Of a stretch of DNA of 64,000 nucleotides, positions 32,396 to 52,881 are shown in pieces. Under the pieces are notes generated by a model. That model ran no database searches. It had not been told where the DNA came from and worked only from the letters and a program-made list of their open reading frames with translations. The translations under genes and the position numbers were made by a program. This DNA is from Thiofilum flexile DSM 14609 (GTDB lineage Bacteria; Pseudomonadota; Gammaproteobacteria; Thiotrichales; Thiotrichaceae), in the NCBI RefSeq assembly GCF_000380185.1, contig NZ_KB904755.1, forward strand, positions 1 to 64,000, given 5' to 3'. The stretch's first letter is position 1. Every line of letters starts with the position of its first letter.

Positions 32396-32469
32396 GCGGG
32401 TGTAGTTCAATGGTAGAACGGCAGCTTCCCAAGCTTCATACGAGGGTTCGATTCCCTTCACCCGCTCCA
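32396..32469 (+). tRNA. tRNA-Gly (anticodon CCC)
   Basis: The 74-base gene folds into a complete cloverleaf: acceptor GCGGGTG paired with CACCCGC, D-stem GTTC/GAAC, anticodon loop TTCCCAA, and T-arm GAGGG-TTCGATT-CCCTT, with encoded CCA. It closely resembles E. coli glyU. One oddity is a C-U mismatch in the anticodon stem (GCAGC against GCTTC). Its 3' end is the integration site of the adjacent element. Confidence 0.96.
32451..32469 (+). other. attL-type site within tRNA-Gly
   Basis: The core ATTCCCTTCACC followed by CGCTCCA is the 3' end of the tRNA gene. Degenerate copies occur at 44414, 57254 and 57962, marking successive element junctions. Confidence 0.7.
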
Positions 32470-32695: not shown

Positions 32696-33883
32696 TTGAC
32701 GCTTACACACACCCAACTTGAAGCCGCCAAGCCTCAAGATAAACCTTACCGCTTAAGTGATGGTGCAGGCTTGCAGCTAGAAATTAGAACCAGTGGGGCT
32801 AAGGTCTGGCTCTATCGCTACCGACAACCCCACACGCAAAAGCAAACCATCCTCACCCTAGGCGAATATCCTTCTATTACGATTCGGCAAGCACGATTAT
32901 TGATTGAGGAAGCGCGAGCATTGCTTAAGCAAGGGATTGATCCTAATACCCATAAGCAAGCCCAAAAACAGCTAAGCCGTGGTCTAACCTTTAAAGACTT
33001 GGCCTTAGAGTTTTATGCTCAGCGGCAAGGTGCTTGGTCGGCTGCCAATGCTGAGCAGGTCATGAAGTGCTTTGAGGTGGATATTTTCCCCCACATTGGG
33101 CACAGAGTGGCTAGTGAACTCACAACCTTAGAACTATTGCAGGTGGTGCGTACCGTCGAGGCGCGGGGGAGTCTGGATAAGGCCGCCAAGGTCAGACAGC
33201 GTATTAATGCAGTGTATGTGTATGGTTTTGATTCGGGACAACTCACCCATAATCCCACACCGAGCAGTGGAGCCTTACAGCTTAAACCCAAAGGACAACA
33301 TTTTAATGCGCTTACTGTGCAAGAACTGCCGCAATTTCTCACTGAGTTAAGCGCGTATCGTTCGGAGGTGTTAAGACGGGCGATACAGTTCACCATGCTA
33401 ACCCTTGCACGGTCTGGTTCGATTCGCTTAGCGCAATGGGTAGAGATTGATTGGGTCAATGCCTGCTGGCATATTCCCGCTGATCATATGAAGCTAGGGC
33501 GAGCGCATAGCATCCCGTTATCAACCCAAGCCTTGCAATTACTTCACGACCTGAAACCCTTCACGGGTAACTCAAACCTTATTTTCTACACCCACCGTAT
33601 CCATAAGCCCATGAGTGAGAATGCGATGTTAGCCGCTCTCAGGCATATGGGATGGGGTGGTAAAATCACTATGCACGGGATGCGAGCCTTAGGCTCTAGT
33701 GTGTTACATGAGGCCGGTTTTAATCCTAAAGCCATTGAGATGCAGCTTGCCCATGTGGAGCGTAATAAGATTGCTGGCTCTTATAATTATATGGCGACCT
33801 ATTGGGAGGAGCGGATTACCCTGATGCAGTGGTGGGCTGATTTTCTAGACAGTGCTAATGCTAAGCCGACTAAAACCCCGTAG
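32696..33883 (+). CDS. int: P4-type tyrosine integrase of element 1
   Basis: The 395-residue protein has the N-terminal DUF4102 arm-binding domain (PYRLSDGAGLQLEIRTSGAK, TLGEYPSITIRQAR), a SAM-like core-binding domain (about 95-185) and a catalytic domain. That domain has LARSGSIRLAQW, HGMRALGSS, the LAHVERNK His and a Tyr in SYNYMATY. The frame begins with TTG at 32696, eight bases after GGAG; no in-frame ATG gives the full arm domain. It lies directly after the tRNA-Gly att site and the arm-site repeats. Its last twelve codons and downstream DNA are identical to those of the second integrase gene, indicating recombination between the two elements. Confidence 0.92.
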   Translation: MTLTHTQLEAAKPQDKPYRLSDGAGLQLEIRTSGAKVWLYRYRQPHTQKQTILTLGEYPSITIRQARLLIEEARALLKQGIDPNTHKQAQKQLSRGLTFKDLALEFYAQRQGAWSAANAEQVMKCFEVDIFPHIGHRVASELTTLELLQVVRTVEARGSLDKAAKVRQRINAVYVYGFDSGQLTHNPTPSSGALQLKPKGQHFNALTVQELPQFLTELSAYRSEVLRRAIQFTMLTLARSGSIRLAQWVEIDWVNACWHIPADHMKLGRAHSIPLSTQALQLLHDLKPFTGNSNLIFYTHRIHKPMSENAMLAALRHMGWGGKITMHGMRALGSSVLHEAGFNPKAIEMQLAHVERNKIAGSYNYMATYWEERITLMQWWADFLDSANAKPTKTP

Positions 33884-33943: not shown

Positions 33944-34531
33944 ATGACAGACCAACCCAAGAAAACGCTAAAGATTATTAGGAAAGTGGTTCCTACCCCT
34001 ACCACACCAATAGAACCTGCCGAACCCGACCAGTTAGCACCGGAGCAGCCGATTCAGCGCACGGGTAAGCGGGTATTGACTAAGGACAAGCTGCAAGAGG
34101 TCAAACCCGAAAAGGGAACCGACTTTTATCGAGCGAGGAAGCTACCCAAACCCAAGCCAACGGATAAAGACGCTAAGTCAGTGGCTAAGCCTGCTAGACC
34201 TAAGCCACCGAAAAAGAAGGTTAAGCCACCGAGTGACATACGCGCCAAAGAGTTAGACGCTAGTCTCAATGGATTTGCAATGTGGCGTGAACGTAAACCG
34301 CTGGCCTTGAACTTTGAGCGGCAAGTGTTTCAGCATGTGGGTAAGCATCATTTGAGTGCTTCAAAGCGGGTGGTGATGAAGCTCTTAGAGTGGCACACCG
34401 CTAACCGTTTTTATCTGCAAGCGGTCAGTGAAGGTGGTAAGCGCTTTAATTTGGATGGTAGCGAGGCCGACACGATCCAAGACTATGAGATCAGCCACGC
34501 ACTGAATAAGTTGGCTAAACGTAAAAAATAA
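33944..34531 (+). CDS. ProQ/FinO-domain RNA-binding protein, copy 1
   Basis: The 195-residue protein has a basic, Pro/Lys-rich N-terminal half (for example PARPKPPKKKVKPPSD). A ProQ/FinO domain follows at about residues 100-190: LNGFAMWRERKPLALNFERQ, LLEWHTANRFYLQAVSEGG and RFNLDG followed by ISHALNKLAKR. Members are RNA chaperones, and FinO relatives on plasmids control transfer through small RNAs. It follows the integrase by 60 bp in both elements and is nearly identical to the copy at 45950-46537. A role in post-transcriptional control of the element, or of a helper phage, is a reasonable inference. Confidence 0.78.
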   Translation: MTDQPKKTLKIIRKVVPTPTTPIEPAEPDQLAPEQPIQRTGKRVLTKDKLQEVKPEKGTDFYRARKLPKPKPTDKDAKSVAKPARPKPPKKKVKPPSDIRAKELDASLNGFAMWRERKPLALNFERQVFQHVGKHHLSASKRVVMKLLEWHTANRFYLQAVSEGGKRFNLDGSEADTIQDYEISHALNKLAKRKK

Positions 34532-34613
34532 GCGTGATTTAATAGAGATCAACTAGGCCATTAGCCCTAACATCGCTGAGCAGTGATTTAATAGGAGGTG
34601 GCTGTACACTTTT

Positions 34614-34697
34614 GCACTATTTTGCACAAAATAGTGCATTAGAAAGGGCGCTAAGGCTTGATGCAGTGGGGTTTGGTGCAGTGAATTTAGTGCAGTG
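34614..34697. promoter_or_regulatory. Palindrome plus three TGCAGTG iterons (control region)
   Basis: A palindrome with 11-base arms GCACTATTTTG / CAAAATAGTGC around CA (34614-34637) is followed by TGCAGTG at 34662, 34677 and 34691, spaced 14-15 bp. This lies in the 440-bp gap between proQ and the capsid gene, which holds no gene. It could be an operator, an origin or both. Confidence 0.5.
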
Positions 34698-34710
34698 TAT
34701 TTAGACTCTT

Positions 34711-34724
34711 CCCCCCCGCCCCGC
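34711..34724 (-). other. Candidate cos-like G-rich tract
   Basis: On the minus strand this reads GCGGGGCGGGGGGG followed by AAGAG, resembling as I remember it the G-rich left part of the P2/P4 cos site (GCGAGGCGGGG then AAAG). It sits upstream of the capsid-gpM-gpO genes. The match is short and low in complexity, so it is only a candidate packaging site. Confidence 0.25.
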
Positions 34725-34932
34725 ATAGGTGAGGGAAAAAACCAAAGAGGTTAAAAAATAGGATTGAACAGATAATGAGGCAATGGCATGCAATTATGCA
34801 CACTTTACTATAAAAGTCAATAGGATAGGTGCTAATTTACCTAGCCGAAAACACACTTTTGCTTTTGATTATTTGCTTGCTATTTGGTTTAATAGAGGTA
34901 ATAAAGTTAACTCATAAAGTTTTTTAACTAGT

Positions 34933-34945
34933 GTCGTGATGACAC
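34933..34945 (+). promoter_or_regulatory. Shared leader motif TGTCGTGATGACA, copy 1
   Basis: A 13-base imperfect palindrome sits 25 bases before the capsid ATG. An exact copy precedes the gene at 37667. It could be an activator or repressor site, or an RNA hairpin near the ribosome binding site (here GAAGGAAA). Confidence 0.5.
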
Positions 34946-34970: not shown

Positions 34971-36014
34971 ATGCAAGAACTTGCACGTACCAAGTTTCAC
35001 AATCTTATTAATCGCATTTATCAACCTTTAGGCTTGCCTGTTGGTAGTCAATACACCCTCGCAGTCCCCCGTCAACAAGCCTTCATTAATAGCCAGATTC
35101 AAGAAGACGCTTTTCTCAAGTTGGTCAATCATCCTCTAGTCACCGCACAAACTGGCGACCGCTTAAGTATGGGCGATGGTAAACCCGTAGGCAGCACTAC
35201 AGACACTGAACAAGACGACAGAAAGCCGCGTGGTGTGGTAGTTGAAGGGGTTGAGTACTTCTGTAATCAAGTCAATTTTGACACCTTTATTAAATACAGC
35301 CAGCTTGACGCATGGGCGCATGTACCAAACTTTGATGATACCTACGCTAACTACGTGCTACAAAACATCGCCAAAAGCATGACCATGATTGCTTTTAACG
35401 GTACACACTACGCCAAGACCTCCAACCTAGCACAATATCCTCTCTTACAAGATTGTGGCTTGGGCTGGTATGCCTTTACTAAGAAATGGAAACCAAGCCA
35501 GATTCTAGGCTTAGACCCTGAAACAGGTGATAGCACCGCCAACCAGTACCAACTAGGTGCAGGGGGTGATTATGAAACCCTTGACGCGCTAGTCTTTGAC
35601 TTGGTGAGTAGTCGCTTTGATGCGTGGCACGCTCAAGCCTCTGATCTGGTGGTTTTGGTCGGGCGTGAATTATGGGTTCAGCACGGCTTTGGGTTAATGA
35701 ATGCCCTGAATAATGCCCCGACTGAAATCAATGCCCTGAAAACATGGCTCTCAGATAAGACGATAGCAGGCTACCCCGCCCTGATGCCGCCTTATATGCC
35801 CGCGCGTGGGTTAATGGTGACAAGCCTTGATAACTTATCTATTTATCATCAAGCCGGAAGCCTCCGACACACGATGGTAGATCATGCTAAACGTGACCGA
35901 GTGGAAGATTACTTCAGCGAGAACCTCGCCTTTATTATCGAAGACTTTGGCAAGTTTGCCGCTGTCCGCCCTGATGCGTTACTACTCAAAACCAAAACCG
36001 GAGACTGGATGTAA
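34971..36014 (+). CDS. P2-family major capsid protein (gpN-like)
   Basis: The 347-residue protein aligns in order with P2 gpN: MQELARTKFHNLINRIYQPL at the start, a SMGDGKPVGSTTDTEQDDRK segment, CNQVNFDTFIKYSQLDAWA, PLLQDCGLGW, GAGGDYETLDALVFDL, LVVLVGRELW, MVTSLDNLSIYHQAGS and DRVEDYFSENLAFIIEDFG. It has the HK97-type capsid fold by family. The usual P2 order is Q-P-O-N-M-L; here capsid comes first, followed by gpM and gpO, with no portal or large terminase gene. Its stop overlaps the next start (TAATG). Confidence 0.9.
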   Translation: MQELARTKFHNLINRIYQPLGLPVGSQYTLAVPRQQAFINSQIQEDAFLKLVNHPLVTAQTGDRLSMGDGKPVGSTTDTEQDDRKPRGVVVEGVEYFCNQVNFDTFIKYSQLDAWAHVPNFDDTYANYVLQNIAKSMTMIAFNGTHYAKTSNLAQYPLLQDCGLGWYAFTKKWKPSQILGLDPETGDSTANQYQLGAGGDYETLDALVFDLVSSRFDAWHAQASDLVVLVGRELWVQHGFGLMNALNNAPTEINALKTWLSDKTIAGYPALMPPYMPARGLMVTSLDNLSIYHQAGSLRHTMVDHAKRDRVEDYFSENLAFIIEDFGKFAAVRPDALLLKTKTGDWM

Positions 36015-36883
36015 TGTTGTCGCCAGCGTCCTTAGTGGCTGAAAAGCCCACTTTGCCTAAAAAAAACCTAGTGAAACCACAACTGCACCGCGCTTTTGTC
36101 CTCAAGCTCAATAGTGACTTAGCCCGTTTGCGCTCAGTACGTTCAATGGAAACTAAGAATGTACTCAAGCAAGACCTGCTTAGTGAATACCAAGACTACT
36201 TGGCTCCTTTGCTCAGTCGGCAAGTAGAGCCTCATGGTCATGATGAGGTCGTGGTGTGGTGTGCGTTATGGTCGATTGATGTAGGCAATTTTAAGCAAGG
36301 TATGGCGCTGGCTCTCTTAGCAATGGAAACGGGAATGCGTGCTCCCGACGGGTTTAAGCGTAGCTTGTCCGAGGTATTGACGGAAAATCTAGTGCATTAC
36401 TGTTTAGATAATAAACCTATTCACTACCTAGACGACCTTGAGACGTTACGCCTTAAGGTAGAGCAAGAGGATATGCAAGACTCTGTTAAAAGTAAGCTCT
36501 TCAAAGCCTTGGGTATTGCTTACTTTGAGCTAGATTCAGTCAAAGCCACGCAATACCTAGAGCGCTCTTTACACTTAAACCCTACAGGTGGAGCAAAAGT
36601 CCACCTCAATGCACTGACCAAGTACCACGCTAGCAAACAAGCGCAAGCCGTACCCAAGGCCAAGGCTAAAGCACAACGTACCAAACAGGCACTGATAGAG
36701 CGTAACTACACGCTCCCGACTAATAAGGCCGCCAAGCTAGTGGGGGTATCGGTACCGACTTTCTTACGTTGGGCAAAAGTTTATGACCTACCTGCCATGC
36801 GGGTGACGTGTGGCACGGGCTTAGGTTTTCGCTTTGACCCGCAAGACGTGGAAAACCTCAAACAAACTCTGATTGTGAGATAA
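36014..36883 (+). CDS. P2 gpM-like terminase small subunit with added HTH domain
   Basis: Residues about 20-215 follow P2 gpM (terminase endonuclease subunit): VLKQDLLSEYQDYLAPLLSR, VVVWCALWSIDVGNFKQGMA, LALLAMETGMRAPDGFKRS, ALGIAYFELDSVKATQYLER and a lysine-rich hinge. Unlike P2 gpM, it continues into a MerR/excisionase-like helix-turn-helix (about 230-289: NKAAKLVGVSVPTFLRWAKV, ending FRFDPQDVENLKQTL). The added DNA-binding module may give the small terminase its own packaging-site specificity; that is inference. Its ATG overlaps the capsid stop by one base and it precedes gpO by four bases. Confidence 0.8.
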   Translation: MLSPASLVAEKPTLPKKNLVKPQLHRAFVLKLNSDLARLRSVRSMETKNVLKQDLLSEYQDYLAPLLSRQVEPHGHDEVVVWCALWSIDVGNFKQGMALALLAMETGMRAPDGFKRSLSEVLTENLVHYCLDNKPIHYLDDLETLRLKVEQEDMQDSVKSKLFKALGIAYFELDSVKATQYLERSLHLNPTGGAKVHLNALTKYHASKQAQAVPKAKAKAQRTKQALIERNYTLPTNKAAKLVGVSVPTFLRWAKVYDLPAMRVTCGTGLGFRFDPQDVENLKQTLIVR

Positions 36884-36887
36884 TCTG

Positions 36888-37601
36888 ATGAAACTAAGAA
36901 CACCTTTTATAACCGCCTGTGTAGCAGGCAAAACCGCTGACGGGCGTGAAATTACCGAGCAGCAAATTGATGAAATGGGCAGTTATAACCCTACCGTATA
37001 CAGTGCCAAAATATGGCTAGAACACCTAAGAGGTACTATGCCGGATGGTGTATTTAAAAGCTTAGGTGAAGTGGTTGCCGTTAAAGTCGTCACCTTGGGC
37101 AGCGAGGCCGGTATTCTAGCGGGCAAGAAGGCGCTCAAGGTACAACTAGAGCCGCATCCTGATCTAGTCAATATGGTACGCAATGGGCAAAAGCTACACC
37201 TCTCGATTGAAATGGTGGAGCGTTTAGCATCCACGGGCAAAGCTTATCTAGTGGGAATAGGTGTGACCGATAGCCCCGCCTCATTAGGTACAGAAATAAT
37301 GCAATTCAATACCTCGGCACGTAAAGAATCACTCTTTAGTACACCGATCACCAGCGAAACCGTGGAGTTTGAAGTAGAACATGCCACCAGTGGCACCTAT
37401 GGGCAATCTATTGTCATGCTCATGAGCGCGGTTGATCAATTAGAGCGTGAAAACGCGACACTCAAGCAGCAAGTGCAGGAGAAGGATAAAAGAATCGCTG
37501 ATCTAGAGGATCAGGTTCCAGCGCCTCCTGGGTATTTCACTCGTAAACCGTCACCTACTACACCGAAACAAGAGACAAATACGGTAAAAAACTGGTTTTA
37601 A
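36888..37601 (+). CDS. P2 gpO-like capsid scaffold/protease
   Basis: P2 gpO is an internal scaffold with an N-terminal serine protease that matures the capsid. The 237-residue protein matches it: GKTADGREITEQQIDEM (containing the likely catalytic Asp), AKIWLEHLRGTMPDGVFKSL (with the His), LHLSIEMV (with the Ser), YLVGIGVTDSPASLGTEIMQ, and a C-terminal coiled coil (about 175-212, VDQLERENATLKQQVQEKDK). It is shorter than P2 gpO (284), mainly in the scaffold region, which might affect capsid size. It is the last gene of the capsid-gpM-gpO unit. Confidence 0.87.
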   Translation: MKLRTPFITACVAGKTADGREITEQQIDEMGSYNPTVYSAKIWLEHLRGTMPDGVFKSLGEVVAVKVVTLGSEAGILAGKKALKVQLEPHPDLVNMVRNGQKLHLSIEMVERLASTGKAYLVGIGVTDSPASLGTEIMQFNTSARKESLFSTPITSETVEFEVEHATSGTYGQSIVMLMSAVDQLERENATLKQQVQEKDKRIADLEDQVPAPPGYFTRKPSPTTPKQETNTVKNWF

Positions 37602-37666: not shown

Positions 37667-37891
37667 ATGGATACTCAAAACCGACCCAAAAGCCAATTCA
37701 AGGCCTTTCGTAACAAGGTACACTCTATTCAATCTATAACCGGATTAGACAATAATCACGCGGTTTATTTGGTGTCATTACTCTCAGAATTAAATCAAGC
37801 ATTGCCCTTGGCAGAATTAAATGACTATCCCTTAGCGGAAAAATTAAAAGAACTTTATAAAGTCTTGGAGTTGGGCTTAGCGCCTCAATAG
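37667..37891 (+). CDS. Small soluble protein of element 1, unknown
   Basis: I do not recognise this 74-residue protein. It starts with a basic stretch (RPKSQFKAFRNKVHSIQS) and continues with amphipathic helices (NHAVYLVSLLSELNQALP, AEKLKELYKVLELGL). It has its own leader sharing the TGTCGTGATGACA motif with the capsid gene and is followed by a strong terminator, so it is a separate transcription unit under the same control as the capsid genes. A small regulator or assembly factor is possible. Confidence 0.65.
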   Translation: MDTQNRPKSQFKAFRNKVHSIQSITGLDNNHAVYLVSLLSELNQALPLAELNDYPLAEKLKELYKVLELGLAPQ

Positions 37892-38094: not shown

Positions 38095-38133
38095 GTTGAT
38101 ACCTGAAATTTGCTACTAACAGGAGCTTTTAGT

Positions 38134-39090
38134 ATGGATATTGCCACGCAAATAAGCAAGGCACATAACTACTTATTATCTCACCTATCCTCCAAGTCGT
38201 TAAGCCTGTTTAACCAACTCACTAGAACACATCAGCTCTATATCACCAGTCTTTTAGTAGGTAGAGATATTGATGCATTTCCTAGTGATGTATCTATGGA
38301 ATATACCCTTCAGGATGATATTAAGGCTTGTTTAGAGCATATAGAAACAGAGTTCAGTAAGATTATTACTGAGCCAGCTACTAAAGAAGCTTGGGAAAAC
38401 TGGTTGCTTTTAAAAAACAATGTTAGCGAGGTCTTGAAAGTTAAAGAGCTTGCTAGATTAGTATTTTTCCCTTATGAACCTTACGCTATTGATAGCCCAA
38501 GACTAGGTATGGAGCAGACCTTTGCTAATGTTTTAAGTGGCTTCTGGATTAATGATGGATTATTAAAGCCTTATCTCTATCCGTGGCAAACGTCAATAAA
38601 AAATGTTTTATTTGGTAGAGAAAATATTAAAAATTATCAACTCAAAACACCTGAAGAAAGCCGAGTACTTTATGCAGAGCTGCCTATAAATAAAAAAATA
38701 CATACTCTTGTTAGATTTGACGATTTAATATCTACTGGTAAGCAAATAAAAATATCAGGAAAGACACATCTCCATCCGTTAGATGTTGCTAATGTATGGG
38801 GCAGTTACCTGCCTAATCCTATAATCACTCTAGAAAGACCAGTTCAAGAATCTAGCATCCAAGGCAATCTAGACCGGCAATTGGAGCTTATAAAGTCTGA
38901 ATTGTTGGAACGTGTCCATCAGGAAGATTTAAACATCATGAGATTGCCTTGGGGGTTTAAGGCTAGTTTTAGACAGTGGTTTTGTAGTCACTATCCCATA
39001 TCTCAAGACGTATTTAATAAAAGGTGGCAAACCTTGCTAGATGAAGGGTTTTTGGATAGTAGTTTTAAGCCTAATCAATCAAAAAAGTAA
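38134..39090 (+). CDS. Unknown cargo protein of element 1
   Basis: I do not recognise this 318-residue protein. ATG 38134 (MDIATQISKAHNYLLSHL) has AGGAG eight bases upstream; the frame is open eight codons further. It appears soluble and helical, with segments such as FPYEPYAIDSPRLGMEQTF, YPWQTSIKNVLFG and a basic C-terminus (KPNQSKK). The gene is more AT-rich than its neighbours and is isolated between hairpin terminators, the position where P2/P4-type elements carry exchangeable defence or moron genes. An anti-phage role is an inference from position only. Confidence 0.7.
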   Translation: MDIATQISKAHNYLLSHLSSKSLSLFNQLTRTHQLYITSLLVGRDIDAFPSDVSMEYTLQDDIKACLEHIETEFSKIITEPATKEAWENWLLLKNNVSEVLKVKELARLVFFPYEPYAIDSPRLGMEQTFANVLSGFWINDGLLKPYLYPWQTSIKNVLFGRENIKNYQLKTPEESRVLYAELPINKKIHTLVRFDDLISTGKQIKISGKTHLHPLDVANVWGSYLPNPIITLERPVQESSIQGNLDRQLELIKSELLERVHQEDLNIMRLPWGFKASFRQWFCSHYPISQDVFNKRWQTLLDEGFLDSSFKPNQSKK

Positions 39091-39204: not shown

Positions 39205-39828
39205 ATGCTGATCATTCAAAAAATACAACCAATCAAGGCTCAATACCTCAATTTTATTGAATTGAGTGAAAGCACCTCACCACGGTATCATGTACTTGTG
39301 CCTATTGAGTTAGGCATGAATGCAGAATTTGCAAACTCCTATCATCTAAAGGGCGACCATAACCGCCAACACGCAGGCGGTGGTTATAAGCCTGTAAGCT
39401 ACCTACAACACGGCGTTATGTCGGGTGAGCGTAGACTACAACACGGCTTAGACCGAAATACACGCAGCGTTTCCTTTGGAGCGTTAGGAGCACCTGACAA
39501 TTTCTGGTTTATCCTAGAACTTACCAAAGTGAATACGACCATGAACGCCTTAAGCGCTTGTGCTAGCACGGCTATAGCCTCCCCTCATCCTCTCCATTAT
39601 ATTGAAAATCCCCACGGCATTATTGCCTACCAAGACGGTTTACCCATTGCGTGGATTATCGCAGGCTACCATCAGGGGCAAATTAATAACAAACCGCATA
39701 CTTGCCGTTTTGTCGATGCTGCTTACCGTCGCGCCACTTATCACGGTGTCAACCTAGAAACCTTTGAATCTGACAGCGTAGCAGCCGCTAAGCAAACCCT
39801 AGAACATCTCTTTGGGGGTGCAGCATGA
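39205..39828 (+). CDS. Early-operon protein, unknown (207 aa)
   Basis: I do not recognise this protein. It is soluble, begins MLIIQKIQPIKAQYLNFIEL and has notable segments HNRQHAGGGYKPVSYLQHGV, SVSFGALGAPDNFWFILEL and ITAYQDG-like IIAYQDGLPIAWIIAGYHQG. The Arg/His/Gly-rich part might contact nucleic acid. It is the first gene of a tightly packed operon (39205-44225) whose members mostly overlap by four bases, ending with the gpA-like replication protein and the conserved membrane protein. A role in replication or early control is therefore likely. Confidence 0.6.
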   Translation: MLIIQKIQPIKAQYLNFIELSESTSPRYHVLVPIELGMNAEFANSYHLKGDHNRQHAGGGYKPVSYLQHGVMSGERRLQHGLDRNTRSVSFGALGAPDNFWFILELTKVNTTMNALSACASTAIASPHPLHYIENPHGIIAYQDGLPIAWIIAGYHQGQINNKPHTCRFVDAAYRRATYHGVNLETFESDSVAAAKQTLEHLFGGAA

Positions 39829-40052: not shown

Positions 40053-40309
40053 TCATGATTGACCGTCACCTTGTCAATGAAATCACTGGCATTAAGCAGG
40101 AAATCGACCTTCTACAAGCACAAGTTCAGTTGATTCATGACCATCTACGCTTAAGTTGCGTGTGTGAAATCAATGCGGGTGTCAAGGTTACGCAAGAAGT
40201 AGCTAACCGCCTTTGGAATGCCTTTGAAAAACTAGAAAACATCGAGAGCCATTTAGTTGATGAAGACCTAACGCAATGGGAAAAACAACATAGCGGGGTG
40301 GCAGCATGA
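40049..40309 (+). CDS. Early-operon small helical protein, unknown (86 aa)
   Basis: The 86-residue protein may start at 40049 or at the second ATG at 40055 (MIDRHLVNEITGIKQEI). It is predicted to be almost wholly helical, with a short coiled-coil-like region (EIDLLQAQVQLIHDHLRL) and a second helix pair near KLENIESHLVDEDL. No family is recognised. It overlaps both neighbours by four bases, so it is translated with the AlpA gene that follows. Confidence 0.6.
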   Translation: MIMIDRHLVNEITGIKQEIDLLQAQVQLIHDHLRLSCVCEINAGVKVTQEVANRLWNAFEKLENIESHLVDEDLTQWEKQHSGVAA

Positions 40310-40644
40310 GCCTATTACCTCCTCGCAAAAAGCAAACCATCAAAGCCCCCACCCTAGCCGCACTCAATCCGGCTCCCTTGCCTCCTGCTCCTATGGTACC
40401 AAGTCCAATAGTGACCGACCCGATAGAAAAAATGCTAAGGCTAGATGATGTCATCGCCATGACCGGAATTAGTAAAAGCCTCATCTATCAGCTCATGGCT
40501 GAGGGACAATTCCCGAAAGCGATCAAATTAACGCCTAAGCTGAGTGTCTGGCGACAAGCCGACGTGCAAGCCTTCCTGAAACTCAAAATTCAACAGGCCA
40601 TAAAAGCTGGAGCCTATCAGCCGTTTCAAGGAGCCACCGCATGA
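40306..40644 (+). CDS. AlpA-family regulator, element 1
   Basis: After a Pro-rich N-terminus of about 45 residues, the 112-residue protein has an AlpA/MerR-like helix-turn-helix: EKMLRLDDVIAMTGISKSLI, YQLMAEGQFPKAIKL and VWRQADVQAFLKLK. AlpA-type proteins are transcriptional regulators or excisionases of P4-like elements. Element 2 has a shorter homologue at 50116. It sits two genes before the gpA-like replication gene in the overlapping early operon, which fits control of excision and replication. Confidence 0.82.
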   Translation: MSLLPPRKKQTIKAPTLAALNPAPLPPAPMVPSPIVTDPIEKMLRLDDVIAMTGISKSLIYQLMAEGQFPKAIKLTPKLSVWRQADVQAFLKLKIQQAIKAGAYQPFQGATA

Positions 40645-42680: not shown

Positions 42681-44033
42681 ATGGATAACTTACTGGTTTT
42701 AGCCTTCCTAGCGATGGTAGGTGGTCTAGTCTGGCTACATCTCAACAAACACAATCCCCAAAAACTCAACTCAGTACGCCACAAAACCAAAGGGCTAGGC
42801 GGCCTCTATGTGGTTGAAAAGGTGCTGTTACTAGCCGCCGGTTTAATGGGTAGCCTATTTGCCTATGGTATTTTCTCACCCATTTGGGAACCTTTGGGCT
42901 ATCTAGTGGGTGCCATGGTCATTGCCTTCAACTTCTCCGAAGGATTCTTGATTCGCCTCACCATTGCCGCGTGGCGCTATGGTTTTCGTTTAGTCGGTAG
43001 CATTGCCGCTATTGGTGTGCTTATGATCATGTGGTATTCGCTAACAGCGGGTGCCAGTGTCATAGAAACCTTTTTAGGCAAGAACCAAGACTTACAGCTA
43101 GCCGCACAATATAAAATTGCAGCGAGTCGAGATACGATTGAAGCCGCCAAAGCGGGAATATTAACGGCTCAATTAAAAGCACGAGAAGCCGATCATTATG
43201 GTTATTTAAATAATCCCGACATAGCCAAAGCACAAGCCAATGCCGCCACCATTTCAGCCCAAGAAAACCAACGCATTGCACAGGTACTCGAAAACAAAGC
43301 ACCGGAATTTAAAGCGGCTTTTGGAATGTCACGCGATGCTGTCGCCTTTCTGGTTGCCTTGGCTTTAGAGTTTAGTATTTTAGGCGTGGTGATATTTACC
43401 GAGCTATTTGGTAAACCTACCCCTCTTCCGGCATTAGTCCGCTTTGCCAATAAATCATTCGATTGGAATATAAACCCACATCATTTAAATAACCTCAGTA
43501 TTGAAAAAAGCCCAGCACCTGAAACCGTGGCCTTACCGTATTCAATGCCTCAAGTCGGCTTTGCGGGTTATTCTGCCTATGCCTCCCAACCTTCACGGGA
43601 AGGTATATCCACCGTCCCTAGCGAGGTGCCCCTAGCGTCCCGTGACGCTTCCCCAGCATCTCACCATACCGTCTCAGACCGTCTCACCGCACCGTCTCCA
43701 GTGTACGCGGTCGGTGAGACGCTAGCCGCTACGGGCGACACCAAACTAGCCCCGAAACCCGCACAAGAGCGTGTATTTAATCAATGGCTAGAATTAATTA
43801 AACAAGGTGATATATCCCCAACGGTCAGACCTGCTAAAACCCTGATTATAGAAAATCAATTAACGGTAGGCGTGAAATTAGCCGAAAGTTTAGCGAGTGA
43901 TTGGCTAGATAGAGCTTATAACTTAGGCGTATTAGCATTGAATCCTGATTATACCAATGGCAGACCTAAATATATCTTAGCCCGTCAATATAAAGCGAGT
44001 AGGGTTGAATTAACTAAAAGAGAGGTGGCTTAA
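42681..44033 (+). CDS. Conserved element membrane protein with C-terminal winged-helix-like region, copy 1
   Basis: I do not recognise this 450-residue protein. Four membrane segments lie at about residues 3-20, 47-66, 71-95 and 101-122. A long charged helix follows (about 130-215, AASRDTIEAAKAGILTAQLK onward), then a fifth segment (about 222-242, DAVAFLVALALEFSILGVVI). A Ser/Pro-rich linker leads to a C-terminal domain (about 350-450) with a helix-turn-helix look (FNQWLELIKQGDISP ... DWLDRAYNLGVLALNP). A copy about 97 percent identical lies in element 2 at 51304, so it is backbone, not cargo. Possible roles are membrane-linked regulation, partition or superinfection exclusion. Confidence 0.7.
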   Translation: MDNLLVLAFLAMVGGLVWLHLNKHNPQKLNSVRHKTKGLGGLYVVEKVLLLAAGLMGSLFAYGIFSPIWEPLGYLVGAMVIAFNFSEGFLIRLTIAAWRYGFRLVGSIAAIGVLMIMWYSLTAGASVIETFLGKNQDLQLAAQYKIAASRDTIEAAKAGILTAQLKAREADHYGYLNNPDIAKAQANAATISAQENQRIAQVLENKAPEFKAAFGMSRDAVAFLVALALEFSILGVVIFTELFGKPTPLPALVRFANKSFDWNINPHHLNNLSIEKSPAPETVALPYSMPQVGFAGYSAYASQPSREGISTVPSEVPLASRDASPASHHTVSDRLTAPSPVYAVGETLAATGDTKLAPKPAQERVFNQWLELIKQGDISPTVRPAKTLIIENQLTVGVKLAESLASDWLDRAYNLGVLALNPDYTNGRPKYILARQYKASRVELTKREVA

Positions 44034-44225
44034 ATGCACTTTGATAATAACGTTCAAACCATTCGACTTAATATCAGCGATGACCAAGCGTTACAAATTC
44101 GAGAAAGGGAGTTACAGCGTAGTGGGGTATTTAAGGTGAATGTTAGCCGTATTCATTCGGCCTTGATTGAGATTGAAATTATCAGCCGTCCGATAATTGA
44201 CGTTACCCCAAAACATTTAAATTAA
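44034..44225 (+). CDS. Conserved small element protein, copy 1 (63 aa)
   Basis: The 63-residue protein follows the membrane-protein gene with no gap and is nearly identical to 52657-52848. It contains RLNISDDQALQIRERELQRS and VSRIHSALIEIEIISRPIID, suggesting a small helical DNA- or protein-binding module. No family is recognised. Conservation in both elements beside the membrane protein points to a shared function. Confidence 0.7.
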   Translation: MHFDNNVQTIRLNISDDQALQIRERELQRSGVFKVNVSRIHSALIEIEIISRPIIDVTPKHLN

Positions 44226-44413: not shown

Positions 44414-44431
44414 ATTCTCTTCACCGCTCCA
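44414..44431 (+). other. att-like junction between elements 1 and 2
   Basis: ATTCTCTTCACC-GCTCCA is a degenerate copy of the tRNA-Gly 3' end at 32451-32469 (one substitution and one missing C). Confidence 0.65.
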
Positions 44432-44657: not shown

Positions 44658-45890
44658 ATGAACCCCGTTGAGCCTAAGCACAATGCCTCCACAGAACTAG
44701 AGGCACGTCATGCTAAACCCCAAGATAAAATCTACCGTTTAACCTATGGTGATGGTTTGCAATTAGAGATTAGACCTAAAGGTACTAAATATTGGATACA
44801 TCGCTATCGCAACCCACTGACTAAAAAGCTAACGGTCTACACGATTGGTGAATTTAAGGATAATAAAGCTCCCCCTCACACCACCTTATTGCAAGCTAGA
44901 ACGGTGCTTTATGAGGTTAAAGGCTTGATCCAGCGAGGTATTGATCCAAATACACAAAAGCAACGCGCCAAAATACAAGCGGAGCATGAAACCTTTAGAG
45001 ATATAGCCTTTGAGTGGTACAACGCTCAACTAAACCGCTGGTCTAGCACTAATACTAATCAAGTATTACGATGTTTAGAGAGTGACATACTCCCTTATAT
45101 TGGTGTTCGCCCTATTGCGGAACTAGAAGCAATGGACTTCTTACAGGTAATCCGACGCACTGAAGGTAGAGGGGCATTAGATAAAGCTCGTAAAGTTAAG
45201 CAGCGTCTAGGTGCCGTAATGCGCTATGCCGTAGCTACCGGACGCGCTAAATTTAATCCTGTACCTGATTTAAGTATTGCTATGATTGCCAAACCTAAGG
45301 AGACACATTTTAACGCACTTACGCTTAAAGACTTACCTAGCTTTCTGCACGATCTAGGCAAATACCGCTCTGAAGTCATGCGTCGTGCGGTACAGTTTGC
45401 TCTATTAACCTTTGCTCGTACGGGTTCAATACGTAGTGCGGAATGGGTAGAGATTGATTGGGACAATCGCGTATGGAATATTCCGGCGCATCATATGAAA
45501 ATGGGAGAAGCTCATATCATCCCACTCTCTGATCAAGCCCTACAGCTCTTAAGAGAGTTGCAGCCATTTACAAGTGATTCACATTTAATTTTTTACACCA
45601 CAAGCCGAGACAAAGAGCTTAGCCCGAATGCTTTGCTGAGTGTACTACGGCACATGGGCTGGCAAGATCGGACTACTATTCACGGTTTCCGTGCTTTGGC
45701 TTCTAGTGCGTTGCATGATGCGGGTTTTGAGCCTCATATTATTGAAAAACAATTAGCCCATGCAGAACGTAACAAGGTAGCAGGTGCTTATCGCTATATG
45801 GCTGAGTACCTGCCAGAACGTATTAAAATGATGCAGTGGTGGGGTGATTTTCTAGATAGTGCTAATGCTAAGCCGACTAAAACCCCGTAG
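44658..45890 (+). CDS. int: P4-type tyrosine integrase of element 2
   Basis: The 410-residue protein has the same layout as the first integrase: arm-binding domain (KIYRLTYGDGLQLEIRPKGT), core-binding domain and catalytic domain. The catalytic domain has TFARTGSIRSAEW, HGFRALASSALHDAGF, the LAHAERNK His and a Tyr in AYRYMAEYLPER. Most of the protein is clearly diverged from integrase 1, including the arm-binding domain, in line with the different arm-site word. The last dozen codons (ending SANAKPTKTP) are identical. It uses an ATG start and follows the junction att site. Confidence 0.92.
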   Translation: MNPVEPKHNASTELEARHAKPQDKIYRLTYGDGLQLEIRPKGTKYWIHRYRNPLTKKLTVYTIGEFKDNKAPPHTTLLQARTVLYEVKGLIQRGIDPNTQKQRAKIQAEHETFRDIAFEWYNAQLNRWSSTNTNQVLRCLESDILPYIGVRPIAELEAMDFLQVIRRTEGRGALDKARKVKQRLGAVMRYAVATGRAKFNPVPDLSIAMIAKPKETHFNALTLKDLPSFLHDLGKYRSEVMRRAVQFALLTFARTGSIRSAEWVEIDWDNRVWNIPAHHMKMGEAHIIPLSDQALQLLRELQPFTSDSHLIFYTTSRDKELSPNALLSVLRHMGWQDRTTIHGFRALASSALHDAGFEPHIIEKQLAHAERNKVAGAYRYMAEYLPERIKMMQWWGDFLDSANAKPTKTP

Positions 45891-45949
45891 ACTAGCCAAA
45901 GATACAACACGCTACCTAGCGAAAATCTTGCACTGATGCGAGTACCTAC

Positions 45950-46537
45950 ATGACAGACCAACCCAAGAAAACACTTAAGATTATTAGGAAAGTGGTTCCT
46001 ACCCCTACCACACCAATAGAACCTACCGAACCCGACCAGTTAACACCCGAACAGCCGATTCAGCGCACGGGTAAGCGGGTATTGACTAAGGACAAGTTAC
46101 AGGAGGTCAAACCGGAAAAGGGCACCGATTTTTATCGAGCGAGGAAGCTACCCAAACCCAAGCCAACGGATAAAGACGCTAAGTCCGTGGCTAAGCCTGC
46201 TAGACCCAAGCCACCGAAAAAGAAAGTTAAGCCCCCCTCTGATATACGCGCCAAAGAGCTAGACGCTAGCCTCAATGGGTTTGCGATGTGGCGTGAACGT
46301 AAACCCTTGGCCTTGAACTTTGAGCGGCAAGTGTTTCAGCATGTGGGTAAGCATCATTTGAGTGCTTCAAAGCGGGTGGTGATGAAGCTCTTAGAGTGGC
46401 ACACGGCTAACCGCTTCTATCTGCAAGCGGTCAGTGAAGGCGGTAAGCGTTTTAATCTGGATGGTAGCGAGGCTGATACGATCCAAGACTATGAGATCAG
46501 CCACGCACTTAATAAGCTGGCTAAGCGTAAGAAGTGA
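45950..46537 (+). CDS. ProQ/FinO-domain RNA-binding protein, copy 2
   Basis: The 195-residue protein differs from the copy at 33944-34531 by only a couple of residues (for example EPTEPDQLTPEQ against EPAEPDQLAPEQ), while third positions vary more, indicating recent exchange plus protein-level constraint. Domain features are the same: a basic Pro/Lys-rich tail and a C-terminal ProQ/FinO domain with WHTANRFYLQAV and RFNLDG. It precedes the first Roco-TIR gene by 176 bp. A small-RNA chaperone controlling the element is the likeliest role. Confidence 0.78.
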   Translation: MTDQPKKTLKIIRKVVPTPTTPIEPTEPDQLTPEQPIQRTGKRVLTKDKLQEVKPEKGTDFYRARKLPKPKPTDKDAKSVAKPARPKPPKKKVKPPSDIRAKELDASLNGFAMWRERKPLALNFERQVFQHVGKHHLSASKRVVMKLLEWHTANRFYLQAVSEGGKRFNLDGSEADTIQDYEISHALNKLAKRKK

Positions 46538-46646
46538 ACTGGTTAATGAGCTAAACAAATGGATTTAAACGAGGGGATAGTAGTGCTTTACTCACTCAGG
46601 GTGAGCCTTTGAGAGAGGAGTTTGAGACTAAATCAATAGTAGCTCA

Positions 46647-46713
46647 CTGATTTACTTGCTCACGCTCCTTACTTTAAAATCTGTCTATCCGCGCCCTTAA
46701 CCCTAGGTCTATT
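46647..46713 (+). promoter_or_regulatory. Duplicated leader/promoter of Roco-TIR gene 1
   Basis: These 67 bases are identical to 54107-54173 before the second Roco-TIR gene. A plausible promoter is TTTACT, 18 bases, then TAAAAT. Each Roco gene thus appears to carry its own promoter. Confidence 0.6.
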
Positions 46714-49632
46714 ATGCCCACTCCCCTAGAGATTGCTTTAGAACGTATTGAAGCTTGCCGTCAAACCAAAGCCCCTCGTTTGGACTTGAGAAATCTACTA
46801 CTGGATGAAATACCACCTAGTGTGTTTGAGCTGGTTTGGCTGGAGGAATTAGACCTTTCCACTCAACCGGGGAAATTTGATGGGCTACATGGGCTTATCA
46901 AGACTATTCCTCCAGAAATTGCTCAATTAACTAAGCTCTTACGTTTAAATGTAGAAAGACAAAGTTTGAGTGATTTAAGTCCTCTGCAATCACTCCATCA
47001 GTTACAATCACTCGATTGCAGTTGGAATCAGATCACCGACTTAAGCCCTCTGCATTCACTCCTCCAGTTACAATCACTCGGTTGCTGGAACAATCAGATC
47101 ACCGACTTAAGCCCTCTGCATTCACTCCTCCAGTTACAAAAACTCGGTTGCTGGAACAATCAGATCACCGACTTAAGTCCTCTGCATTCACTCCACCAGT
47201 TACAATCACTCAATTGCGGTGACAATAAGATCACCGACTTAAGCCCTCTGCAATCACTTCAGCAGTTACAATCACTCGCTTGTGGTGGCAATAAGATCAC
47301 CGACTTAAGCCCTCTGCAATCACTTCAGCAGTTACAATCACTCTCTTGCCGCCGTAATCCTGAAAACATTTGGAAGCAGATCACTGACTTAAGCCCTCTG
47401 CAATCACTCCTCCAGTTAAAATGGCTTGATTGCAGTGGCAATCAGATCACCGACTTAAGCCCTCTGCATTCACTTCAGCAGTTACAATCACTCCATTGCC
47501 GTTCCAATAAGATCACCGACTTAAGCCCTCTGCATTCACTCCTCCAGTTAAAATGGCTTGATTGCCGTGACAATCAGATCACCGACTTCAGTCCTTTTGT
47601 TGAAACCCTGTTGTCTCGTCAATTCGAGCACCTAGGCTTAGCCAATAACCCCATTGCTTCTATTCCCTCTGTGCTATTAGGAGACATCTACGACGACTGT
47701 TATGAAAGCTTGCGTCATTACTACCTAGCCCTTAAACAAGGCTTTGAATGGCGGCGTCAACTCAAGATTCAATTCATCGGCAATGGTCGCGTTGGCAAAA
47801 CTAGCTTAGCCTATGCCCTCAAACATCAAAAAGCTGCACCTCCCCATATGGAATCCACGCATGGGATTACCATTGAAACCTGCTGCCTCTCCTCTGAGAG
47901 TAACGAGCCTATCACTTGGCAGCTTTGGGACTTTGGTGGGCAAGAAATTTATCATGCTACTCACCGCCTCTTTTTAAGTGATGATTGTTTATATCTCTTA
48001 GTGTGGGCAGAGGAAACCGAAGCGCAACCCACAGAAATAAATCATCCTGTGAGTTATTGGCTAGAGGCTATTCATGATCTAGCACCCAATAGTCCGGTCA
48101 TTCTAGTCAAAAATCAGATAGATCGCTCAGACAAGCACCCTAGCGCTGACCCTGCTGATTTCAGTGCTACCATGCTAGGGGCTAAGCAAATTCGCCAAGC
48201 CGCTAAAACCTCTGCAATACAGTATAAAAATATTAAGAGCTTAAGAGTGATGATTGAGGAAGTGGTTGAAGAACTCAAAGGGCGAGTCTGTCTCCAATTA
48301 CCCCGCTCATGGCTAGCCGTTGAAGAGGCGATTAATCAATACAAACTTACCCACAAAACTCTGAGCTTTGACCACTTTACCACGCTGTGCCAACAGCATC
48401 AGATTGATTATGCCGAGTGGTTTGCAGACTACCTGCATAAGACGGGGGTTATGTTTTATCGAAAAGGTGCGTTTCAAGATCAAATTATTTTAGATCAAAA
48501 CTGGATTATCGAGGCAGTGTATAAAGTCTTTGATAGTAAGGCTCCCTATCGGAAACGGTTAATCAAGAAAGGGGGAAGATTCTCAGGTTTTGAAAGTCAA
48601 TTGATTTGGCAAAACACCGATGAAACTGAGCGCGAAATTTATATTAACTTCATGCGCGATTGTCATATTTGCTATGAAGCAAACCGTTATTGGAATATTC
48701 CCTTTGCCGAGCGTGAATACATTATTCCTGCCTTTTTGCCTGAAAAAAATCCGACTGAAAAATTATGGGGCAATATCTCTACGGACTGGCACTATAAGGT
48801 TCACTACCCTTTCTTGCACCGTAGCATTATTGAACGCTTGATTATTCGTTTGGGCGAAACTTATAAAGACAATGCTCGGCCGTGGCGAGACGGCATTTAT
48901 TGTGAGACAGAATGGGGACAAGTGTCCTTAGTGTGTCATATTCCTGATAAAACCCAATCGAATCAAGGCTATTTACAGTTTAGTCTACGCGGCACACATC
49001 AGGAGGGCTTGCTATATGCTTTGCGTCAATTGGTAAACGAAATTAGCCCACATCATCGTTATGCGGAATCATTACAACGAGGACAAGAGGAGGCTCAAGA
49101 TTTGCCTGAATTTAAGAAAGAGGAAAGCTTTACCTCACGCCTTGACAAACCTGTCGAAAAGCCAGCCGTTCAAGTATTTATTTCATACTCAAAAGAGGAT
49201 AAAGAGCATCGTTTAGAACTAGAAAAACGCCTTAAAAATATTAGTCGCCAATTTAAGGTTAAAGCATGGGGTGATGAGCAACTGCTAGCAGGTGGACTAA
49301 CTGATAAGGATATTAAAGCAGAACTGAGCAAAGCCGATCTGATCTTGTTGTTAATCAGTTCTGATTTTTTTGATAATGATGATTGCTATGACATTGAGCT
49401 ACCGCTGGCACTAAAGCGTTATCAGGCTAAAAAAGCCATCGTGATTCCTATCATTGTGCGGAATACTCCTAATTGGCAGGAGCAAGCGGCTGGTGATTTT
49501 AAGTTAGGCCAGATTACCCCTTTACCTAAGGATGGTTTACCCTTAAAACAGTGGCCTGATAAGGACGACTTTTGGGCTGATGTACACACAGGCATTACAG
49601 CACGCATAAAACATTTACTAGCTGAGGGTTAA
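46714..49632 (+). CDS. LRR-Roc-COR-TIR (Roco-TIR) protein 1
   Basis: The 972-residue protein combines a sensor, a GTPase and a TIR effector. About nine 22-residue leucine-rich repeats lie at about 85-300 (ITDLSPLHSLLQLQSLGCWN type), one with a six-residue insert. The Roc GTPase has P-loop GNGRVGKTSLA (about 355-365), G3 LWDFGGQEIYHATHR and a G4-like VKNQID. A COR-type region (about 520-740) has DQIILDQNWIIEAVYKVFD. The C-terminal TIR domain (about 817-972) has VFISYSKEDKEHR and DCYDIELPLALKRY, with the Glu expected for NAD cleavage. A bacterial innate-immunity role is inferred. A paralogue lies at 54174. Confidence 0.85.
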   Translation: MPTPLEIALERIEACRQTKAPRLDLRNLLLDEIPPSVFELVWLEELDLSTQPGKFDGLHGLIKTIPPEIAQLTKLLRLNVERQSLSDLSPLQSLHQLQSLDCSWNQITDLSPLHSLLQLQSLGCWNNQITDLSPLHSLLQLQKLGCWNNQITDLSPLHSLHQLQSLNCGDNKITDLSPLQSLQQLQSLACGGNKITDLSPLQSLQQLQSLSCRRNPENIWKQITDLSPLQSLLQLKWLDCSGNQITDLSPLHSLQQLQSLHCRSNKITDLSPLHSLLQLKWLDCRDNQITDFSPFVETLLSRQFEHLGLANNPIASIPSVLLGDIYDDCYESLRHYYLALKQGFEWRRQLKIQFIGNGRVGKTSLAYALKHQKAAPPHMESTHGITIETCCLSSESNEPITWQLWDFGGQEIYHATHRLFLSDDCLYLLVWAEETEAQPTEINHPVSYWLEAIHDLAPNSPVILVKNQIDRSDKHPSADPADFSATMLGAKQIRQAAKTSAIQYKNIKSLRVMIEEVVEELKGRVCLQLPRSWLAVEEAINQYKLTHKTLSFDHFTTLCQQHQIDYAEWFADYLHKTGVMFYRKGAFQDQIILDQNWIIEAVYKVFDSKAPYRKRLIKKGGRFSGFESQLIWQNTDETEREIYINFMRDCHICYEANRYWNIPFAEREYIIPAFLPEKNPTEKLWGNISTDWHYKVHYPFLHRSIIERLIIRLGETYKDNARPWRDGIYCETEWGQVSLVCHIPDKTQSNQGYLQFSLRGTHQEGLLYALRQLVNEISPHHRYAESLQRGQEEAQDLPEFKKEESFTSRLDKPVEKPAVQVFISYSKEDKEHRLELEKRLKNISRQFKVKAWGDEQLLAGGLTDKDIKAELSKADLILLLISSDFFDNDDCYDIELPLALKRYQAKKAIVIPIIVRNTPNWQEQAAGDFKLGQITPLPKDGLPLKQWPDKDDFWADVHTGITARIKHLLAEG

Positions 49633-49752
49633 TGTCATACGTGCCTTAGTCCCTCTTGCTACGTTCGCCTAAGTATATTATCGTTCGCCTATGACCTATT
49701 GAGTTAGGTCTATCCGGCAAGACCGGAACTCTTAGCACACAAGGCGGCAAGC

Positions 49753-49781
49753 ACCGCTCCCACCTCACAGGCGGTTTTTTT
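49753..49781 (+). terminator. Intrinsic terminator after Roco-TIR gene 1
   Basis: ACCGC / GCGGT arms with a 13-base loop are followed by seven T. A further small hairpin (CGGCG/CGCCG) follows at about 49793. No gene is seen in 49633-49927. Confidence 0.6.
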
Positions 49782-49927
49782 ATGTCTGTATTACGGCGGA
49801 ATTATCGCCGGATGCGTAGGGCATACAACACCGCACAGGCGGGAATAACTACAGCGTTTCCTTGTGAACGTTAAGAGCATCCGGCAACTTTGCCCACTCT
49901 TAAAATTTAGTCACAAGGTATAGCAAT

Positions 49928-50116
49928 ATGACCGCACGTAGTACTATGGGCAATAGTGCCCTCATTCTTTTGGCGTTAACTAGCCTCCCCTTTTCTGATA
50001 CCTCACACAGCCTCATCAATCCGTATCCTGACACTCTCTATAGACTTCACCCCATAACCTTTGATGCTAGCCGTAGCAAACCAGCCCCCCTCACACTAGT
50101 ACAAGGGGGTCTGTGA
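49928..50116 (+). CDS. Small protein of element 2, unknown (62 aa)
   Basis: The 62-residue protein begins MTARSTMGNSALILLALTSL, which could be a membrane anchor or a weak signal peptide, followed by a polar part. It is not recognised. It is the first gene of an overlapping set (49928-52848) that replaces the early operon of element 1. Its stop and the AlpA start share bases (TGATG). Confidence 0.5.
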   Translation: MTARSTMGNSALILLALTSLPFSDTSHSLINPYPDTLYRLHPITFDASRSKPAPLTLVQGGL

Positions 50117-50325
50117 TGACTCTAAGTGTAAAAGGCATTGATCCGCTGCTACGCCTAAAAGAGGTGATGTACTGTACAGGACTCAGCAAGACCACGATCT
50201 ACCGTCTGATTAGTGATGGCCGCTTTCCCAGACAACTAAAGCTCTCTCAGAAAGTGAGCGCCTGGAAGCAATCTGACATACAGGCCTTCATTGACGGCAA
50301 ATATTCTAATCAGGAGGGAGTGTGA
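50116..50325 (+). CDS. AlpA-family regulator, element 2
   Basis: The 69-residue protein (ATG 50116; a GTG at 50113 is also in frame) is a compact AlpA: DPLLRLKEVMYCTGLSKTTI, YRLISDGRFPRQLKL and AWKQSDIQAFIDGK. It matches the C-terminal HTH part of the AlpA in element 1 but lacks the Pro-rich N-terminus. It probably controls excision or early transcription of element 2. It overlaps the preceding stop by one base. Confidence 0.85.
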   Translation: MTLSVKGIDPLLRLKEVMYCTGLSKTTIYRLISDGRFPRQLKLSQKVSAWKQSDIQAFIDGKYSNQEGV

Positions 50326-50390
50326 TGATAAACGACCACTACCCTGCACAGCCCCTAAAGCGCTTATTCATGCCGGAGGCCGCCCTATGA
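50325..50390 (+). CDS. 21-aa micro-ORF between AlpA and replication genes
   Basis: ATG 50325 shares a base with the AlpA stop (TGATG) and is preceded by AGGAGG. The 21-codon frame (MINDHYPAQPLKRLFMPEAA then L) ends TGA at 50390, overlapping the replication gene start by four bases. The tight coupling suggests that it is translated, either as a peptide or as a device to pass ribosomes to the next gene. Confidence 0.4.
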   Translation: MINDHYPAQPLKRLFMPEAAL

Positions 50391-51301
50391 GCCTAGCCCA
50401 TGAACTAATTGATGCTGCCCTAGCCGCTGATTTAAGCAAGAATGAGCTTAAAACCTTCTTGGTGCTCTTTCGTCAAACCATCTGCTTTGGTAAAACCTCC
50501 GATGCTTTGACCCTAAAGCGTATTGTTAAACTATCAGGTACTCGTAAAGACCGAGTCAAACCCACGCTAAAACGTCTAGTCGAGGTGGGTCTATTTGAGG
50601 CGACCCCGCACAAAATCTATGAGTACACCTATACCATAGCGGCGCATTTTCTAGCACACGCCGATCTGGACTTAATAACACCTCCCTCTCCGAAAAACGG
50701 AAAAGACCTCCGAAATTCGGACGGAAAAACGTCTGAAACTCGGATACATACAGTTATACCTACTACAGATAAAACCTCAACAGCTACAACCGAGCGCGAG
50801 CAACCCACTAAAACCGCAACACTCACTCCCCCTACCATAACCGAGGATTGTTGTTGTAATTGTAATAGTGATTTTGTGGATGAATTACCCTATCCAAGCA
50901 CTTGGGATAGCACCCAACGCCACCAAGCGGCTCAGATACTCGATGGCCTCAGCCCGCAACAAGCCCATGATTGCCTATTACTGCTAGCCCATAGCCTCAA
51001 TAAGGGCAAGATAAACAATATCATGGGGTATCTACGCACCCTAACCCAAGCAGCAAGACGTAATACCCTAGACCGTCGTGCGCTGTGTGCCCTAAAAGCA
51101 AATAACACACCAAGAGCGAGTTTGAGCGTTCCTAGTGTGACTCCTCCTACCCCACAACGTTTAAACGCCATAAAAGCAGAAATCAGCAGCTTAGATACAC
51201 TATTCACTCGTGCAGGTATCCCTATGGATAGCGCTACTGCTGCTAAACGAGCGAGCTATGTAGCTGAATACAATACACTTAAACAAGAGTTAGGAGGTTA
51301 A
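50387..51301 (+). CDS. Winged-helix replication-initiation-like protein, element 2
   Basis: ATG 50387 (MSLAHELIDAALAADLSKNE) has GGAGG seven bases upstream; the frame is open another 32 codons. The first about 100 residues resemble the DNA-binding domain of phage replication proteins of the lambda O type: FLVLFRQTICFGKTSDALTL, SGTRKDRVKPTLKRLVEVGL. A Thr/Pro-rich linker with CCCNCNSD follows, then a helical C-terminal part (SPQQAHDCLLLLAHSLNKGK, NNIMGYLRTLTQAARRNTL). It occupies the place of the gpA-like gene of element 1, so the two elements appear to replicate by different mechanisms. No helicase gene accompanies it. Confidence 0.65.
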   Translation: MSLAHELIDAALAADLSKNELKTFLVLFRQTICFGKTSDALTLKRIVKLSGTRKDRVKPTLKRLVEVGLFEATPHKIYEYTYTIAAHFLAHADLDLITPPSPKNGKDLRNSDGKTSETRIHTVIPTTDKTSTATTEREQPTKTATLTPPTITEDCCCNCNSDFVDELPYPSTWDSTQRHQAAQILDGLSPQQAHDCLLLLAHSLNKGKINNIMGYLRTLTQAARRNTLDRRALCALKANNTPRASLSVPSVTPPTPQRLNAIKAEISSLDTLFTRAGIPMDSATAAKRASYVAEYNTLKQELGG

Positions 51302-51303
51302 TC

Positions 51304-52848: not shown

Positions 52849-52881
52849 AACACTTCACTCAGACCAACCCAACAGGGCAAG

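Follow-up and report, generated by a model that had tools for sequence, protein, structure and literature searches.

An integrated element of Thiofilum flexile that probably encodes half of a P2-type phage head

What use is a phage capsid gene to a mobile element that has neither portal nor tail? The question is raised by an element of about 12 kb in Thiofilum flexile DSM 14609 (Thiotrichaceae), found in the first 64,000 nucleotides of contig NZ_KB904755.1; this whole stretch is referred to below as the window. Three adjacent genes of the element (positions 34971-37601) encode proteins resembling the major capsid protein gpN, the small terminase subunit gpM and the protease/scaffold gpO of phage P2, called N, M and O here. 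Based on the sequence comparisons that follow, the element is probably an integrated satellite which encodes half of a P2-type head and borrows the portal, the packaging motor and the tail. With slightly less confidence, we consider it likely that two genomes share the making of the virions: the shell, the protease/scaffold and DNA recognition would come from the satellite, and the portal, motor and tail from the helper, with swaps of the protease for an unrelated ClpP-type one in some members.

The head module and its relatives

The first-pass annotation of the window had assigned the three head genes, had seen an integrase and a replication gene in the same element and had noted the absence of portal, large terminase, connector, tail and lysis genes. 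Pfam and PHROGs agree with the assignments (Table 1), and tblastn and family scans of the element found none of the missing genes. The portal family has no match among the element's proteins (Pfam, PHROGs and related scans), and homologues of Q and L were not found. There is no recognisable gene for a large terminase (the small subunit only), a connector or a tail protein in the element, no match to the HNH family, and no lysis gene among its annotated open reading frames. Among known structures, the profile of N finds gpN (7jw1, 3.8e-105) and a second capsid of the P2 family (7oz4, 5.1e-116). Genes for a major capsid protein and a head maturation protease, by which capsid-forming phage-inducible chromosomal islands (cf-PICIs) are recognised, are present in the element. 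The features used for PICIs of Gram-negative bacteria are also present: integrase, AlpA regulator, replication gene and an own attachment site, the copies of which are imperfect.

Relatives were searched for the same module, as had been suggested, in a sample of 144 genomes; the N search matched 13 of them, that of T. flexile included. In the contig search the window N alone gave no matches, and an alignment of N proteins was used as the query which found relatives. Loci were compared by tblastn with the structural proteins of the P2-like phage KS14 and the proteins of the window. Satellites of the same architecture are present at 12 further Thiotrichaceae loci with intact N (given L numbers below), in a contig-end fragment (L031) and in four IMG/VR contigs; the named records belong to Thiothrix, Thiolinea and uncultured Thiotrichaceae. 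Cultured carriers include Thiothrix lacustris DSM 21227, T. fructosivorans ATCC 49748 and Thiolinea disciformis DSM 14473. Which of integrase, ProQ, N, M, O, AlpA and Rep are present varies from satellite to satellite, and tblastn found no homologues of Q, P, L or tail genes in any of them. The sole exception among the N-matching loci of relatives is L030, a P2-like prophage in which Q, P, O, N, M and tail genes are all present. Conversely, P, Q, L or tail genes accompany N at 156 of the 157 non-satellite loci; the last locus is a contig of 4.3 kb. The gene order N-M-O had been described as unlike P2, where Q and P are divergent from O-N-M-L. This is real in the window but is not a rule of the family: 8 of 17 relatives (window counted) have O-N-M, as in P2.

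The 17 full-length satellite N proteins form a single clade among 162 capsid proteins (Shimodaira–Hasegawa-like approximate likelihood ratio test, SH-aLRT, 99), and the satellite label changes once on this tree, compared with 16.4 times for shuffled labels. The N of L030 stands next to the clade on a weaker branch (91), at a point where long branches meet. Identity of the satellite proteins to the window N goes down to 40-49%, which together with the single clade suggests an old acquisition of the module and its retention while the sequences diverged. A GxW tail of N, considered as a marker of satellites, is found in 17/17 of them but also in 10 other N proteins and is not diagnostic.

The ratio of nonsynonymous to synonymous substitutions (dN/dS, Nei-Gojobori) indicates that N is under purifying selection: the three closest pairs have values of about 0.03-0.07, and the other pairs reach 0.16 at most. 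The values are 0.18 for M and about 0.15 for O in L018-L020; all of them are rough, since synonymous distances are near saturation. Every intact satellite copy of O keeps the Asp/His/Ser triad, which in P2 gpO we take to be Asp19, His48 and Ser107. In L019 and L022 the place of gpO, immediately behind N-M, is taken by a protease of the ClpP family (Pfam 3.2e-34 and 1.8e-28) that has a coiled tail and is related to head proteases of other phages. That one head protease has been swapped for another with no relationship to it speaks for a role of the module in building heads. In L021 the O gene is split by an inserted stretch, and this locus is a decayed member of the family. What looked like a fusion of O and N in L024 is an artefact: the alignment had been extended through a stop codon.

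Packaging site, head size and use of the module

Sequence comparison indicates that the cos-like packaging site of the element matches that of the P2-like prophage L030 in the same bacterial family. The candidate site of L030, a GC-rich block followed by TGCAC repeats, lies about 105 bases past the 3' end of Q and occupies the position of cosL in P2, just beyond Q. In a leave-one-out search, a 145-nt query taken from L030 alone matched the window at 34729-34613 on the minus strand (E 2.5e-9). The same query matches L020, L018, L021, L112 and L023, always upstream of N and in one orientation. The pattern CGGGGCGGGGGGN6TTAAAA occurs three times in the 144 genomes, namely in L030 and in two satellites at the same place before N; in IMG/VR it is found in one contig only, of 36.9 kb, whose site is identical to that of L030. 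Short P2-cos-like GC motifs used as queries gave many chance matches inside genes, so the cos assignment rests on the 145-nt comparison. In L024, L113 and L028, GC-rich blocks upstream of O look P2-cos-like by eye and are possibly a second cos type, of the O-N-M subclade.

The M protein of the window has an extra C-terminal winged helix (about residues 234-288), modelled by AlphaFold2 with a predicted local distance difference test score (pLDDT) of 92. It is present in all members of the N-M clade (truncated in L021), and according to the alignment the M proteins of O-N-M members and of L030 do not have it. A Foldseek comparison matched it to RacA, namely to the DNA-binding domain in complex with DNA (5i44; 38% identity over 52 columns, root-mean-square deviation 2.2, E 0.054); this modelled likeness is a lead, short of proof. 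L030 has the same cos and no winged helix, so recognition of cos by itself does not require the domain. The domain may sharpen the preference for satellite DNA.

Between its presumed attachment sites, the right one of which repeats the 3' end of the tRNA imperfectly, the element measures about 11.96 kb. The corresponding lengths are 12.5 kb in L023, 13.6 in L024, 13.8 in L027, 13.3 in L028 and 13.7 in L029; these five satellites are bounded by att repeats with lengths of 20-40 bases or more, located at a tRNA gene if one could be identified. Such sizes are about one third of the 36.9-kb contig with the L030 site and near that of P4 (11.6 kb). The uniform element length of 12-14 kb, close to P4, makes a small head likely for the family, and the region of O after the protease is short as well (37-115 residues in the satellites, compared with 148 in P2 and 158 in L030). 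A T=4 head, by analogy with P4, is a guess.

The proposed cycle would begin with infection by a P2-like helper or with induction of one, upon which the element would excise (Int, AlpA) and replicate from its own GPA-type initiator. A procapsid of satellite N and O, probably small in view of the short scaffold and the uniform length, would be built on the helper's portal ring (Q). The satellite M would bring the large terminase (P) of the helper to the cos of the satellite; the particle would be finished with the helper's completion protein and tail.

The short scaffold tails would also suit a redirection of helper capsids, in which the shell would be a mixture of helper N and satellite N, the latter forming for instance the pentamers, and the short O would force a smaller head. 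Ccm of SaPIbov5 is a precedent for it (PMC8569155). We consider this redirection unlikely, though the best placed of the alternatives. The reading with an own shell and a borrowed portal is strengthened by the shared cos-like site, the conserved triad, the purifying selection and the swap to a non-homologous protease. Much less probable is a module for interference, where N, M and O would poison helper assembly by mixed capsids and a hijacked terminase, protecting the cell and not packaging the element. Satellites often lower helper yield, and the neighbouring tandem element bears defence-like TIR genes; however, the packaging site is conserved along with N-M-O, the protease triad of O is intact and the att-bounded lengths are uniform. 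That a P2-like prophage has simply lost its other genes is hardly credible here and is already refuted as a general explanation: the genes are of P2 origin and half of the family has the P2 order O-N-M, but the module is found in many species as a single N clade under purifying selection, at differing integration sites, with own replication and regulation genes and a repeated size of 12-14 kb. The first-pass annotation would have given up its proposal had complete P2-like prophages been the closest relatives, with genes lost in this strain only; the closest relatives are satellites. Its proposal of an own shell, scaffold/protease and DNA-recognition subunit with borrowed portal, motor and tail is supported, the formation of such particles being predicted from sequence.

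Helper and surroundings of the module

A helper prophage elsewhere in the genome, which had been suggested as a check, is not present. In the host genome we found no second P2-type capsid, no P2-type portal and no P2-type large terminase (L030 protein as query); PF03354 also gave no match in this genome, but the model is ill suited to the P2 large terminase. These and other observations weigh against the proposed division of the head. P2-type Q or P was found neither in the host nor in any other satellite-carrying genome, and both are present in only 1 of 63 Thiotrichaceae genomes. The window N is on a long branch (2.18). The type-A cos is found in six satellites only, and for the O-N-M subclade there are candidate sites at most. 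L115 contains N and M with no recognised protease. Considering the distribution of Q and P, the helper would come from outside or be rare; an L030-like phage is inferred as the helper from the sequence matches. The situation resembles that of the cf-PICI EcClEDL933, for which resident prophages gave no detectable mobilisation of the satellite (PMC11389934).

The features of the element are presented in Table 1. The Rfam scan had the tRNA as its sole match, and phage records contain no exact DNA match to the element. ProQ/FinO-domain genes (33944-34531; 45950-46537) adjoin the integrase in most such elements. The inverted-repeat element CGTGATGAC at 34931-34945 before N occurs again at about 37640 after O, and is shared with L030 and other satellites. 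The core of GTGTCGTGATGACAC is also found upstream of O in L030 and upstream of N in several satellites. This repeat may serve as a leader element or as a promoter for late genes.

Table 1. Position, strand and supporting matches of the features of the satellite element
Feature	Position	Strand	Evidence or remark
tRNA-Gly(CCC)	32396..32469	+	ARAGORN, Rfam; same tRNA-Gly adjoins satellites L018 and L020
Presumed attL (tRNA-Gly 3' end)	32451-32469	+	ATTCCCTTCACCCGCTCCA
Tyrosine integrase, P4/CP4-57 arm-binding type	32696..33883	+	Pfam Arm-DNA-bind_3 1.1e-24, Phage_integrase 2.3e-14
ProQ/FinO-domain protein	33944..34531	+	Pfam ProQ 5.7e-11; present in 15/20 mapped stretches
cos-like packaging site, approx. 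130 nt	34602..34732	-	GC block, then TGCAC/GTGCA iterons
GC block of cos-like site	34712-34724	-	GCGGGGCGGGGGG; expected 0.05 times per window
Inverted repeat	34931..34945	+	GTGTCGTGATGACAC; about 26 nt before N
gpN-like major capsid protein (N), 347 aa	34971..36014	+	Pfam Phage_cap_P2 5.8e-86 (residues 14-332); PHROGs agree
gpM-like small terminase (M), 289 aa	36014..36883	+	Pfam Phage_term_smal 4.9e-22; PHROGs agree
gpO-like protease/scaffold (O), 237 aa	36888..37601	+	Pfam Phage_GPO 5.3e-51; PHROGs agree; D/H/S triad; scaffold tail short
74-aa protein	37667..37891	+	no family match (Pfam, PHROGs)
326-aa protein, position variable	38110..39090	+	no convincing match
207-aa protein	39205..39828	+	conserved in 9 satellites; structure model of low confidence (pLDDT 49)
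AlpA-type regulator/excisionase	40306..40644	+	Pfam Phage_AlpA 8.1e-15
GPA-type replication initiator, 627 aa	40795..42678	+	Pfam Phage_GPA 1.4e-83; phrog_91 1.1e-175
450-aa protein, N-terminal half hydrophobic	42681..44033	+	conserved, 14 mapped stretches; no family match
63-aa protein	44034..44225	+	found in 4 mapped stretches
Presumed attR	44414..44431	+	ATTCTCTTCACCGCTCCA; one mismatch and one deletion relative to attL

A second element (44658-57265) follows as a tandem insertion at this tRNA-Gly; it has an AlpA of its own and a related integrase. Its ProQ is near-identical, its 450-aa protein is 97% identical, and the 63-aa protein is also present. It contains neither N-M-O nor a cos match. 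Its cargo comprises two LRR-Roc-COR-TIR proteins and one CHAT-TIR protein, which match ThsB-like TIR models and appear to be defence-like.

Comparison with known satellites

cf-PICIs, described in PMC10690885, PMC12409344 and PMC11389934, make complete heads. The window element resembles them as an integrated satellite with its own capsid protein and head protease which would use helper tails. The difference is that cf-PICIs encode the portal, connectors, both terminase subunits and HNH, whereas the element has the small terminase only; its capsid protein is a P2-family one, and a large motor subunit would have to be borrowed. The Streptomyces satellites MulchRoom and MiniFlayer (PMC10690885) likewise have their own head genes and small capsids, but they carry the portal, both terminase subunits and an adaptor, and belong to an unrelated sequence family.

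With P4 the element shares a similar size, a probable P2-type helper, a helper-like cos, an integrase and an AlpA-type regulator. P4 redirects helper capsids by Sid and has no capsid gene, in contrast to N, O and M here. The families of Sid, Psu, Delta and the alpha primase-helicase have no matches in the element: in place of the alpha replication protein of P4, a GPA-type gene is present. Ccm of SaPIbov5 is a capsid-protein homologue which forms pentamers only and relies on the capsid protein and portal of the helper (PMC8569155). A cos site, a gene for a capsid-protein homologue and the use of portal and terminase of the helper, which for the element is predicted, are common to both satellites; however, Ccm is the sole satellite protein found in the capsids of SaPIbov5, while the element has capsid, protease/scaffold and small terminase genes together. 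Peduoviridae possess portal, large terminase, tail and lysis genes, none of which was found in the element.

In the open-access literature we found no satellite with only the shell, the protease/scaffold and the small terminase; an earlier description is possible in subscription papers. Such a family would bear on which interfaces of the phage head two genomes can share (shell-portal and small-large terminase). It points to a possible origin of cf-PICI-like elements, and its cos sites and small terminases are naturally paired. In a study of satellite capsids from 2025, makers and packers of complete heads (cf-PICIs) are distinguished from users of helper packaging proteins (PMC12409344). The best reading is that the window family stands between capsid redirection of the kind seen in P4 and Staphylococcus aureus pathogenicity islands (SaPIs) and the capsid-forming PICIs; if true, it fills the gap between these two classes.
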